Shown here piece by piece: positions 2,855-16,573 of a stretch of DNA of 21,028 nucleotides (the first letter of the stretch is position 1; each line of letters opens with the position of its first letter). Under the pieces are notes generated by a model. The model had not been told where the DNA came from. It saw nothing but the letters and a program-made list of their open reading frames with translations, and searched no databases. This DNA comes from a virus. A program made the translations under genes and the position numbers. The DNA is taken from positions 1 to 21,028 of the IMG/VR virus record IMGVR_UViG_3300035664_000103, one strand, 5' to 3'.

Positions 2855-3729
2855 GCGTTGTCTCATACCGCGAGATCCTGCCGCGAACCTACTCCCACAA
2901 GCTGGGCGAGGCCCCGCGTGGCACGTCCAAGTGGGCGATCACGGTCAGCCAGCCCATTGGCCACCAGACTGCCATCGACACGGTCGGCATCTACCACGGC
3001 ACGGTGCATCCAGAGTACGCCTATCTCGTCTGCACCGACGCGTCGGTAACGGAGGCGGATCGGCACCACGTGGAGATCTCCTACACGTGGGAGGTGCCCG
3101 AGGCGGGGCAGGAGCTTGGCTTTCAGCCCAACCCAATCGCCAGGGCAGATGTCTGGTCGTTCTCGACCGGCGGGGCTCAGGTGCCGGCCCTGACCTACTA
3201 CAACGGCACCGGCAACGGCGACAGCAGGCCGCTGGTCAACGCTGCCAACGATTTCATTCAAGGGCTGACGCGACTTGAGGCTGAGGTGCGCGTCACGATA
3301 GCCGGGAATCGCGCCACGTTTCCCTCATCTGTCGCCGCAAGCGTCACGAATGCGGTCAACAGTGGGGCGTTCCTGTTTGGTACCGCTCACCAGTGGTTCT
3401 GTTCTGGCATAACCGGCACGCAGGCCAGCGAGGTCGTCAACGGCCAGGTGGTGAATTACTGGCAGGTTGGCGTCGAGCTCGTCTACCGGCAAAGCGGGCA
3501 TGATCTGCTGCTGCCTCACGTTGGCCTCGAGCAGCTCCACCCGGTACACGGGAAGGTTCCTTGCGTTGTGTACGACGAGGAAAACCAACGCTTAGTCGCA
3601 TCGGCTTTGCCGCAACCACTCCAGACCAACGGCCTGCAGAAGTTCCTAGGCTCTGCCCCCGACATCCTCACGCGACGCATCTACCCAGAGATCAACTTCA
3701 CGACCTATTTCGGCGTGCCGCCGTTCTGA
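2851..3729 (+). CDS. Phage structural protein of unknown function (distal tail/tip position)
   Basis: A 292-residue protein with no motif I can assign. It is rich in aromatic residues and beta-strand-like segments (WAITVSQPIGHQTAI, HHVEISYTWEVPEAGQ, WQVGVELVYRQSGHDLLLPHVG), as in virion proteins. It ends with an aromatic tail, NFTTYFGVPPF. It directly follows the tape measure gene with a 4-base ATGA overlap, the place where siphophages encode the distal tail protein or other tip components, so a tail-tip role is inferred from position alone. No signal peptide, transmembrane segment or catalytic motif is seen. A lysin or tail-fibre function is possible but unsupported. Confidence 0.7.
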   Translation: MSVVSYREILPRTYSHKLGEAPRGTSKWAITVSQPIGHQTAIDTVGIYHGTVHPEYAYLVCTDASVTEADRHHVEISYTWEVPEAGQELGFQPNPIARADVWSFSTGGAQVPALTYYNGTGNGDSRPLVNAANDFIQGLTRLEAEVRVTIAGNRATFPSSVAASVTNAVNSGAFLFGTAHQWFCSGITGTQASEVVNGQVVNYWQVGVELVYRQSGHDLLLPHVGLEQLHPVHGKVPCVVYDEENQRLVASALPQPLQTNGLQKFLGSAPDILTRRIYPEINFTTYFGVPPF

Positions 3730-8088: not shown

Positions 8089-9000
8089 TCAGGCAGCGTC
8101 TTCTGGCACGAACTCGGCATCCGGGCCTCCGAGCTCGGGCAGGCGGCTTACGGCCGTCTCCGTGGGCCTCACGATACTGGGATCGAGGTAGACCGCCGTT
8201 GTCCGTGGATTGGAGTGCCCGAGGTGCTCGCTTGCATTGCCCCCTGCCGCGGCGAGGTACGAGGCCGACGACTTGCGGATCGAATGCAGGCCCCTCACAT
8301 GAACGCCAGCCCGCTTGCGGATGAGGTTCCACGCCGCGTACAGCGAATGCAGCTGCCCTGGGTACCGCCAGACCAGATCGCCGGGTGCACTGCGGTGCTC
8401 CCTGAGTTCGTCGGCGAGGCTCTGGCTGATAGCCCGCACGATGTCGCGGCTACGGCCCTTGCGAGTCTCAGCCAGGAACGTGATCTGCCGGCCATCCAGA
8501 TCGACCTCGGACCACCGAAGGGCCACCAGGGCCCCGCGTCGCTCGCCGGTCTCAAAGGCCACCCTGATCAGCGTTCGCCAGAACCACGCCACTGGGATCT
8601 GGCCGTACATCCGTTTCTTCCCGGTCGTGGCCGCGTGCATCATCGCCTGGAGCCCGTCGACCGTTGCGGCCTTTGGCGTGTGGTGCACGAGCCGCGTGCG
8701 TGGCAGGCTCGGGAACTGCTCCACGAGCCGCTTTTTGGCCGCGAACGACCATAGGGCACTGATCTGGGCCTTGTCCTTGGCGACTGTGTTGGCCGAGATC
8801 GTCTTGCCACCCCGCTTTTTTGCGTGGCTCCTGCTCTGAAGGAACCTCGCCACCTCGAGGTCGTCAAAATCGGAAGTCAGCGGCTCCCTTCCAAGGAACC
8901 GTTCCCAGTGGTCGATGGTGTTCTGGTAGATCACGATGCTACGCGGCGTCAGTTGGTGCAGCGGCGCGTATCGATTTAGCAGTAGCTCTCTGACAGTCAT
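8089..9000 (-). CDS. int: Tyrosine recombinase (phage integrase)
   Basis: A 303-residue, complete tyrosine recombinase. Residues 1-100 form the SAM-like core-binding domain (TPRSIVIYQNTIDHWERFLG...ISANTVAKDKAQISALWSFAAKK). The catalytic domain shows R154 (ETGERRGALVALRW), the beta-turn K181 (ETRKGRSRDI), H239-x-x-R242 (LHSIRKSSA), H262 (EHLGHSNPRTT) and the nucleophile Y271 (TAVYLDP). The catalytic set is complete, so the enzyme should integrate and excise the phage by strand exchange between attP and attB. There is no long arm-binding N-terminal domain, so it is of the shorter type. The minus-strand start ATG (8998-9000) has an AAGGGAG upstream. It is transcribed against the flanking operons and diverges from the helix-turn-helix gene at 9189, a likely partner in directionality control. 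Confidence 0.95.
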   Translation of the reverse strand: MTVRELLLNRYAPLHQLTPRSIVIYQNTIDHWERFLGREPLTSDFDDLEVARFLQSRSHAKKRGGKTISANTVAKDKAQISALWSFAAKKRLVEQFPSLPRTRLVHHTPKAATVDGLQAMMHAATTGKKRMYGQIPVAWFWRTLIRVAFETGERRGALVALRWSEVDLDGRQITFLAETRKGRSRDIVRAISQSLADELREHRSAPGDLVWRYPGQLHSLYAAWNLIRKRAGVHVRGLHSIRKSSASYLAAAGGNASEHLGHSNPRTTAVYLDPSIVRPTETAVSRLPELGGPDAEFVPEDAA

Positions 9001-15467: not shown

Positions 15468-15757
15468 TGTGGCGACGGATCGACACCGACCCGCCCGAGA
15501 ACTACCAGGACTGTCTGGTGAGCGACGGGAAATCGTGGCCGGTGTGTGCGGTGGCTCAGGTGTTCGACGGAGTGGCGTGGCTGTACCCACGCGAGTTAAC
15601 GGTCGCGGACGGCTATTCACCGGAGTGGTGGATGCCGCTACCGCGGCCGCCACAACGGAGTGAGGAACGATGCGAAACGGATTTTTCGCGGTGGCGATTC
15701 TTGCGGTGGCTCTGGCCTCGACCTCGGCCGACGCCGGCCCCTGGCGGCGGAGCGTGA
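15467..15757 (+). CDS. DUF551-like small phage protein
   Basis: A 96-residue protein starting at ATG 15467, which shares one base with the dnaN stop (TGATG); a GTG at 15464 is an alternative. Residues 2-65 follow the DUF551 pattern found in many phage early regions: W-x-x-I-D-T-x-P-P...CLVSDGKSWPVCAVAQVF... ending WWMPLPRPP. The function of DUF551 is not known. The C-terminal 30 residues overlap the signal peptide region of the next gene and are rich in Trp, Pro and Arg, so the functional part probably ends near residue 68. A second DUF551-type protein is encoded at 18674-19165. Confidence 0.7.
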   Translation: MWRRIDTDPPENYQDCLVSDGKSWPVCAVAQVFDGVAWLYPRELTVADGYSPEWWMPLPRPPQRSEERCETDFSRWRFLRWLWPRPRPTPAPGGGA

Positions 15758-16044
15758 CGACGACCAGGGCGTCGAGCTGCACGGGCGGCAGCTGCTCGAC
15801 GGCTTCGACCCGGACGGTGACCCGCGGCGGCGGCGCTCAGGCCCACGCCGAATCGATGGCGGCCAGCGGCTCGATGGTCCACGCCGCGTCGCACGGCGCG
15901 ACCTACGAGGGCGTCGGAGTCGGCGGCAGTGCGGCCGCGGCCCTCGCTTCGTGTTGCAACAACGGCGGTGCGGTGCTCGAGGAGGGTGTCGCACGCGGGC
16001 GGGATGGCCGGTGGTATGCCTGCCGGCGGTACAGCCTGCGGTGA
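15670..16044 (+). CDS. Exported small cysteine-containing protein (YEGVG/CC family)
   Basis: A 124-residue protein with a clear signal peptide: MRNGFFAVAILAVALASTSA, cleavage likely near DAG (21-23). A Ser/Thr/Arg-rich linker with C37 and C42 follows. The conserved-looking domain at 57-124 has AHAESMAASGSMVHAASHG, then YEGVGVGGSAAAALASCC and GVARGRDGRWYACRRY, with a CC pair at 95-96 and C118. I believe similar short secreted proteins are common in planctomycete genomes and their phages; their function is unknown. In a phage early region such a product might act at the cell envelope, for example in superinfection exclusion, but this is a guess. It starts inside the DUF551 gene after a TGAGGAACG sequence. 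Confidence 0.65.
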   Translation: MRNGFFAVAILAVALASTSADAGPWRRSVTTTRASSCTGGSCSTASTRTVTRGGGAQAHAESMAASGSMVHAASHGATYEGVGVGGSAAAALASCCNNGGAVLEEGVARGRDGRWYACRRYSLR

Positions 16045-16050
16045 TGTTTG

Positions 16051-16129
16051 GCGGGTGCCCTTGGTGGGAGCCGCCGGAGTTGTTGTACAGCACTCCGGCC
16101 ATGCTGCTGGTTCGATTCCAGCCACTCGC
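16051..16129 (+). ncRNA. tRNA-like element 1 (acceptor and T arm intact, anticodon arm replaced by long hairpin)
   Basis: GCGGGTG (16051-16057) pairs with CACTCGC (16123-16129) through 7 base pairs with one G-T, as a tRNA acceptor stem. The T arm is canonical: GCTGG - TTCGATT - CCAGC (16106-16122), directly against the acceptor. A reduced D arm with a GG dinucleotide can form at about 16060-16070. In place of a 5+7 anticodon arm there is an 8-base-pair stem, GCCGGAGT (16073-16080) with ACTCCGGC (16092-16099), and an 11-base inner region that can pair further around GTAC. No CCA is encoded. The 7-base-loop anticodon with T33 is not present in a credible form, so a normal decoding tRNA is unlikely. 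Confidence 0.6.
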
Positions 16130-16136
16130 GTTGTTC

Positions 16137-16233
16137 GACGCCAATAGTTCAAGAGCTCCCTGCCCCATGCGGGCAGGGGCCGCAGCAGAATCCGGCGCTG
16201 CCGGGGATGCGGGTGCGAATCCCGTTTGGCGTC
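16137..16233 (+). ncRNA. tRNA-like element 2 (8-bp acceptor, T arm, 8-bp hairpin in place of anticodon arm)
   Basis: GACGCCAA (16137-16144) pairs perfectly with TTGGCGTC (16226-16233). The T arm is GCGGG - TGCGAAT - CCCGT (16209-16225), with G in place of the invariant T55. A short D-like stem AGTT/AGCT with a 4-base loop without GG lies at 16146-16157. The anticodon position is taken by CCCTGCCC (16158-16165) and GGGCAGGG (16171-16178) with a 5-base loop CATGC. About 30 bases with possible internal pairing (GCAGC/GCTGC) fill the variable region. The element follows the first after 7 bases, and both fill the gap between two exported-protein genes. Confidence 0.55.
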
Positions 16234-16267: not shown

Positions 16268-16573
16268 ATGCGTTTGATGCGTGTGGCTGTTGCGGTTGTG
16301 GCTCTTTGTCTCGTCGGTGCGTCGTCGCAGGGTGCTCTCCAGCGGACGCAACCGACCGCGAAATCGACGGCGGTGGGCCGTTGGTGGCAGCAGACGGTTC
16401 GGATTCACTACGCCAATGGATCGTGGGAGTGGGGCTACTACCGCTGGCACGGACACGCCGATTCGCGGGTCGGTGCGACCGTGTGGGTGTTGCTCCACGG
16501 CTCGACGCAGCAATCCGCGTGGGCGCTGATCGGTGCGCGGATCGAGGTGGTCGGGGCTCCGTATCCGGGTTGA
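16268..16573 (+). CDS. Small exported protein of unknown function (101 aa)
   Basis: ATG 16268 follows GGAGG (16255-16259) with an 8-base spacer and starts a signal peptide (MRLMRVAVAVVALCLVGASS). The mature part is rich in Trp, Gly and His (GRWWQQTVRIHYANGSWEWG, then YYRWHGHADSRVGATVWVLL), suggesting a compact beta fold outside the cytoplasm or in the periplasm. I do not recognise the family. It follows the two tRNA-like elements, and the neighbour at 15670 is also exported, so this part of the early region is envelope-directed. The cleavage site is likely after residue 20-22. Confidence 0.65.
   Translation: MRLMRVAVAVVALCLVGASSQGALQRTQPTAKSTAVGRWWQQTVRIHYANGSWEWGYYRWHGHADSRVGATVWVLLHGSTQQSAWALIGARIEVVGAPYPG

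Follow-up and report, generated by a model that had tools for sequence, protein, structure and literature searches.

Anticodon-less tRNA-like RNAs form a conserved phage family behind an exported-protein gene

What kind of RNA fills the gap between two small exported-protein genes of an uncultivated phage, and what might it be for? The IMG/VR virus contig in question was analysed over 21,028 bases (the window) and carries a phage gene set that includes a tyrosine integrase, RecT, the DNA polymerase III beta clamp and RusA. The upstream gene of the pair (15670..16044, + strand) codes for a protein of 124 residues with a signal peptide and a C-terminal CCNNGG...GRWYACRRYS motif, for which a Pfam search gave no match; the next gene (16268..16573, + strand) codes for a second small exported protein of 101 residues. 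The gap runs from the stop codon of the first gene at 16044 to the ATG of the second at 16268 and contains two successive elements on the same strand, element 1 (16051..16129) and element 2 (16137..16233), separated by a spacer of 7 bases. No promoter was seen in this gap, nor any terminator beyond the hairpins themselves.

The initial annotation, made from the sequence alone, described in the two elements acceptor stems of 7 and 8 bp, T arms with 7-base loops and 8-bp hairpins with loops of 11 and 5 nt, respectively, and all of these are indeed present. A T arm with a matching 7-bp acceptor at the tRNA distance arises in shuffled sequence at a rate of about 0.8 per Mb (a single match in 1.26 Mb), so that two adjacent elements are not a product of chance. 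At their own thresholds, ARAGORN and Rfam report no match to a tRNA or tmRNA in the window; ARAGORN in relaxed mode returned hundreds of noise calls and was of no use. A coding reading was ruled out, since the length differences among the elements are not divisible by 3.

Homologous loci, designated here by L-numbers, were sought through relatives of the neighbouring proteins and through DNA patterns (a first pattern proved too loose, its matches being mostly tRNA-Gln and chance occurrences). An element of this kind was found on about 30 other IMG/VR contigs, and the 124-residue exported protein is its constant 5' neighbour. Where that protein is at least 58% identical, 23 of 23 loci carry the element downstream on the same strand (24 of 24 counting the window), and the first element begins 6-8 nt past the stop codon in 17 of the 24 and 39-128 nt past it in the others. 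On reading the loci with an exported protein 53-55% identical (L212, L213 and L239), or those of the weaker relatives L215, L231, L232 and L238, no element was found, and the form seen in L219/L230 (43%) is 55 nt long, lacks a D arm and has a 6-bp hairpin capped by GAAA. Two further phage groups carry an element elsewhere: that of L015 (85 nt) is situated away from the exported-protein gene, between genes that by eye are VRR-NUC-like and DUF3310-like, and that of L250/L244 (67 nt) is likewise not behind it. Near the L250 element, L283 contains several further sequences that have acceptor and T arms but an abnormal or greatly lengthened middle; these may be tRNAs that are degenerate or carry introns. 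In L192 and its relatives a conserved leader, GTGGTGCGTCACGACGGCGGCCACGGTTCGATTCC, precedes the downstream exported gene and carries the T-loop-like sequence GGTTCGATTCC.

The homologues lead to a different assignment of the arms of element 2. The acceptor strand GACGCCAA (16137..16144) forms 8 bp with TTGGCGTC (16226..16233), where CCA is not encoded. The D arm, originally regarded as reduced, proves to have a normal stem, in which GTTC (16147..16150) pairs with GAAT (16188-16191). Within its loop, at D-loop positions 16-17 as judged from the homologues, is an insert (16153..16183) which in relatives has another length and sequence or is absent. The 8-bp hairpin CCCTGCCC/GGGCAGGG with its 5-nt loop (16158-65/16171-78), taken previously for a long stem in place of the anticodon arm, is part of this insert and is missing from other members. 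The anticodon-arm equivalent is instead a hairpin that was overlooked at that stage, CCGGC-GCT-GCCGG (16192..16204), with 5 bp and a loop of 3 nt; homologues and covariation point to the same assignment. The T arm, GCGGG-TGCGAAT-CCCGT, follows at 16209..16225. We also considered an alternative in which the long hairpin is the anticodon arm and the 5+3 hairpin a class-II variable arm; it was rejected because GTTC and GAAT pair and covary, and because the D loop is ordinary in those members from which the long hairpin is missing.

For the assessment of this structure, 21 distinct cores were aligned in one frame with the inserts excised (alignment A4), and 26 pairs were counted: 8 in the acceptor, 4 in the D stem, 5 in the anticodon-arm equivalent, 5 in the T stem and the tertiary pairs 8-14, 15-48, 18-55 and 19-56. 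Standard pairs occupy 97.4% of the cells, compared with 37-48% when the structure is slid along the alignment, and both sides of the pair change at 18 of the 26 positions, including all 8 acceptor pairs and 3 of the 5 T-stem pairs. Double-change cells number 77, against 24 in shuffles, and none of 500 shuffles reaches the observed result; the 21 sequences are kin, so the shuffles overstate the significance, but the slid controls retain the kinship and yet score far lower. Across the family 97.6% of the D-stem cells are paired, with the third pair switching between U-A and C-G, a count that leans on the inserts having been cut by hand before alignment with the D stem as guide. The members with an ordinary D loop, L250 included, needed no such excision, and the nine insert-bearing sequences alone gave a covariation outcome of the same kind.

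The tertiary contacts are similarly constant. Pair 15-48 is A-U in 12 members and G-C in 9, with no exception, and U8-A14 and G19-C56 are invariant (21 of 21). G18-U55 is kept in 20 of the 21 and broken in the window only, where element 2 has A18 and G55 and no GG in its D loop; the loss of this contact had been noted correctly, and the comparison adds that it is private to the window. The family core thus comprises an 8-bp acceptor, U8, a 4-bp D stem, an elbow between the D and T loops and a T arm of 5 bp with a 7-nt loop, and the cloverleaf, with its three arms (acceptor, D and T) and its elbow contacts, is present family-wide (minus G18-U55 in element 2 of the window). Mismatches or bulges are present in L194, L200, L203 and L205. 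Element 2 therefore belongs to a conserved family of phage RNAs whose fold is borne out by compensatory changes and by covariation at tertiary pairs.

The members fall into two types according to the D loop. Type I, with an insert, includes the window, L002, L005, L006, L026, L095, L132, L133 and L135; L198, L200 and L202 are intermediate and were placed with type I by their D stem. The inserts vary in length and sequence and mostly form hairpins. Type II, with the ordinary D loop AGTGGCA, includes L003, L192-L195, L197, L199, L203-L205, L208-L210 and L246, and the D loop of L250 is likewise ordinary (AGTGGCA). L206 has an element as long as a normal tRNA, in which the anticodon arm is irregular. 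Two of the type I contigs (L005:6931-7470 and L135:6438-6767) also encode a candidate protein that by eye resembles tRNA-guanine transglycosylase/DpdA.

A 7-nt loop with U33 and an anticodon was not found in the members. In its place is a hairpin of 3-5 bp with a loop of 3-6 nt, mostly a tri- or tetraloop cap, several being of the stable UNCG type. The 5-bp versions include CCGGC-GCT-GCCGG, CCGGC-TCT-GCCGG, CCCGC-CTT-GCGGG and CTCGC-CAT-GCGAG; shorter ones are TCCC-AAT-GGGA, CCC-UUCG-GGG, CCC-UGCG-GGG and CCTC-AATT-GAGG, and the largest loop is that of CCTGA-AGTGCA-TCAGG. An anticodon hidden by a cleavable insert was ruled out, because type II members have no anticodon either. The anticodon arm is thus absent as a decoding device and the RNA is not a decoding tRNA, as supposed at the outset for structured tRNA-like elements without a usable anticodon. 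Close relatives contain no 5+7 anticodon arm, and their acceptor and T stems change in a compensatory manner; neither of the outcomes named initially as refuting the observation was seen.

Against the R1 model element 2 scores 66.5 bits, being itself part of the training set. Some relatives exceed the threshold of the general tRNA model (RF00005, 29 bits), namely L204 (38.5 bits), L015 (37 bits) and L192 (35.2 bits), and the window is not called; the Ala, Pro, Gln and Ser tRNAs that ARAGORN calls in some members are at differing, non-homologous places. Searches beyond the virus contigs recovered ordinary tRNAs. An exact pattern run on 84,980 bacterial genomes matched canonical tRNAs and chance sequences only, and blastn of the element sequences against INPHARED phages gave ordinary tRNAs or short matches only. 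The R1 model was also run on 246 genomes from the phylum to which L145, a Planctomycetaceae MAG, belongs, a phylum that is itself a guess for the phage host; the best scores were at most 58 bits and the top 20 were all ordinary tRNAs according to ARAGORN. The exported protein had no match in these 246 genomes or in the INPHARED phages.

Element 1 also adopts a cloverleaf as its minimum free energy fold (-39.4 kcal/mol). It consists of a 7-bp acceptor, GCGGGTG/CACTCGC (16051-57/16123-29), a D hairpin CCC-TTGGT-GGG (16058-16068), the 8-bp hairpin with an 11-nt loop (16073-80/16092-99) and a T arm GCTGG-TTCGATT-CCAGC (16106-16122), and it lacks U8 and A14. Among the contigs found, no homologue of element 1 was detected and the long hairpin has no counterpart. 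Its match to the tRNA-Sec model (RF01852) is 18.6 bits, under the threshold of 47 bits, and it shows no UCA anticodon. In other phages, L254 (Asp), L261 (Asn) and L257 (Arg) contain apparent tRNAs, recognized by eye, with D stems of 2-5 bp and the same 5-nt D loop, TTGGT; the D arm of element 1 is thus of a known reduced kind. We treat element 1 as a diverged tRNA-like element not assignable to a family; its fold and position suggest that it may be put to the same kind of use as element 2.

The ancestry of the family is suggested by larger phages. On contigs of up to 205 kb (part of L220-L237), the exported gene, about 38-53% identical, is located inside a tRNA array, in the order tRNA-Val, exported gene, often an Ile/Met-annotated tRNA or tRNA-like sequence, and then Glu, Leu and tmRNA. 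This array around the exported gene, ending in tmRNA (near locus position 3000), appears as a cassette common to small and very large phages. In L204 a tRNA-Met starts 5 nt behind the element, a spacing as in tRNA precursors. In this tRNA-Met(CAT) (L204:3474-3546) C1 and C72 are mismatched and the anticodon stem is rich in G, both of which are initiator marks, and it thus resembles a phage-borne initiator-like tRNA; its start also occurs at the contig end of L002. The family likely descends from a tRNA gene at the exported-gene site. Of the initial suggestion that the elements are remnants of broken tRNAs, the ancestry is thus retained as likely, given the true tRNAs at the same site in jumbo phages. 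As a description of their present state it fails, since the tRNA core is under selection.

For the function we tentatively favour a former tRNA kept as a recognition signal for RNase P and RNase Z, one that would set the 3' end of the exported-protein mRNA. Element 2 would be a derivative of a tRNA gene that lost decoding and kept the acceptor-T-arm helix (8+5 bp), the D stem and the D/T elbow, and it would be transcribed together with the exported-protein gene, forming the 3' untranslated region of that mRNA. Cleavage at the 5' end of the element, 6-8 nt past the stop codon in most relatives, would be the work of RNase P, which reads the acceptor/T helix and the elbow (G19-C56); this cut would leave the mRNA with a defined 3' end, detached from the next gene. 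The small RNA would then be finished by RNase Z or exonucleases, together with CCA addition. With decoding not needed, the D loop could accept inserts and the anticodon arm could dwindle to a hairpin with a cap.

We prefer such a signal, which was among the options listed originally and still has somewhat less than an even chance of being correct, because the constant features are the targets of RNase P and RNase Z, the lost ones are those that the ribosome needs, no promoter is seen and there are precedents at mRNA ends. The stacked G19-C56 pair is a feature that RNase P recognizes (PMC11693755), and an acceptor/T hairpin is by itself a sufficient RNase P substrate (PMC11143913). On this view the tRNA shape now serves the cutting or protection of the mRNA; co-transcription, cleavage and the 3'-end function are what we infer. 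Counted against processing are the elements of L015 and L250/L244 that are not behind the exported-protein gene, the G18-U55 contact lost in the window and the mismatches or bulges of some relatives. Moreover, cleavage alone could be satisfied by an ordinary tRNA or an acceptor/T hairpin, so the fact that pair 15-48 and the D stem are kept could indicate an RNA with a longer life.

Retention of the whole L-shaped core, including the D stem and pair 15-48, speaks for the main rival, ranked next, in which the element is released as a stable free mimic of tRNA and acts in trans, for instance as a decoy that competes for a host tRNA nuclease, or as a competitive inhibitor of that or another tRNA-acting enzyme that reads the acceptor or elbow. 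Having no anticodon, such a mimic would not itself be cleavable by anticodon nucleases. The location of elements beside phage tRNA genes would suit this role, and competitive inhibition of an anticodon nuclease has been suggested for the tRNA-like domain of Salmonella YrlA (PMC7790460). However, an RNA acting in trans needs no strict coupling to one gene at 6-8 nt, its own promoter is not seen and its target is not known, and we consider the proposal rather unlikely. Equally doubtful is its extension, a new class of stable anticodon-free mimics that would act in trans on tRNA-targeting defence or on the tRNA enzymes of the host and would have the exported-protein gene as partner in one cassette. 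We regard as less probable still that the elements are functionless, degenerating tRNA genes persisting by chance. The true tRNAs behind the same exported gene in jumbo phages, the G18/U55 loss in the window and the mismatches in some relatives would be consistent with decay, but covariation largely contradicts it: acceptor, D, T and 15-48 pairing is preserved through double changes across many phages. Furthermore, the anticodon arm is never random, being always a small stable hairpin, and the element is kept in all 24 close relatives.

A chargeable mini-tRNA that donates an amino acid outside translation is improbable. The 8-bp acceptor recalls tRNA-His or tRNA-Sec, and most members have a G-1:C73-like end pair, but L005, L015 and L250 have A-U at this place, and the two ends do not pair in L003 and L193; G3:U70 occurs in only 2 of the 21 (L198 and L202), and no aminoacyl-tRNA-dependent enzyme was seen among the 20 window proteins scanned. 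It is more improbable yet that the element originated as a copy of a host tRNA gene and serves as the attachment site of a prophage. Pieces of tRNA commonly serve as att sites and the phage has a tyrosine integrase (8089-9000), but the integrase is 7 kb from the elements, RNA-level tertiary covariation would be superfluous for att, and in L247 it is the 3' half of a tRNA-Arg that adjoins the integrase gene, with the tRNA-like element 5.6 kb off. This tRNA-Arg(ACG) half (L247:1000-1071; also L285 and L286), with a GC-rich hairpin for the 5' half and situated at a tyrosine integrase, is a probable attP.

If the preferred processing role is correct, a tRNA would here have become a 3'-end signal in a phage, and relatives have both the true and the stripped form at the same place. 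ARAGORN and Rfam miss or misread most members, and such elements are therefore likely to be under-annotated in phage genomes. To our knowledge, conserved tRNA shapes without an anticodon occur in vertebrate lncRNAs, plant mitochondria and bacterial Y RNAs, and we know of no phage family tied to one mRNA; in the open-licence papers covered, none of this kind was found.

Among the known systems, the tRNA-like domain of tmRNA resembles element 2 as first read, in having an acceptor and T arm and a long structure for the anticodon arm. However, tmRNA has no D stem and possesses a tag reading frame and G3:U70, unlike the phage family, save for G3:U70 in the two relatives. The YrlA Y RNA module of bacteria and some phages is, like the phage element, a tRNA mimic without decoding, but it requires a Ro-binding stem and an Rsr partner. 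TROVE (Ro/Rsr) was found in none of 20 virus records, mostly fragments (a control genome was positive), and in the loci read the bases past the 8-bp acceptor are not complementary and thus form no Ro-binding extension. With no tmRNA match either, both identities were rejected, and the affinity to tmRNA and Y RNA proposed initially is abandoned. Bacterial tRNA-Sec and tRNA-His share the 8-bp acceptor and 5-bp T stem with the family, which differs from them in lacking an anticodon and in having a D arm of ordinary size or with an insert.

A closer likeness is offered by plant mitochondrial t-elements, which are tRNA-derived, are situated at gene ends and serve as RNase P/Z signals. They differ from the phage element in being mitochondrial and close to known tRNAs, and we know of no t-element with a capped anticodon hairpin and a D-loop insert. 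The t-elements define mRNA ends, are CCA-tailed and are not charged (PMC11658184). As in the phage RNA, the mascRNA and menRNA of MALAT1 and NEAT1 (RF01684) combine an acceptor, T arm and D/T elbow with a compact loop and no anticodon, although the Rfam model matches L192 only weakly (17.5 bits) and the window not at all. These are products of vertebrate nuclear lncRNAs; their D arm is reduced and 8-nt linkers are missing, in contrast to the full D stem, U8 and pair 15-48 of the phage RNA. They lie at the 3' end of a longer transcript, and the phage element lies behind a stop codon. In mascRNA and menRNA the anticodon-equivalent stem is longer, with a compact loop and a conserved elbow, and the long RNA acquires its 3' end through cleavage by RNase P and RNase Z (PMC11693755).
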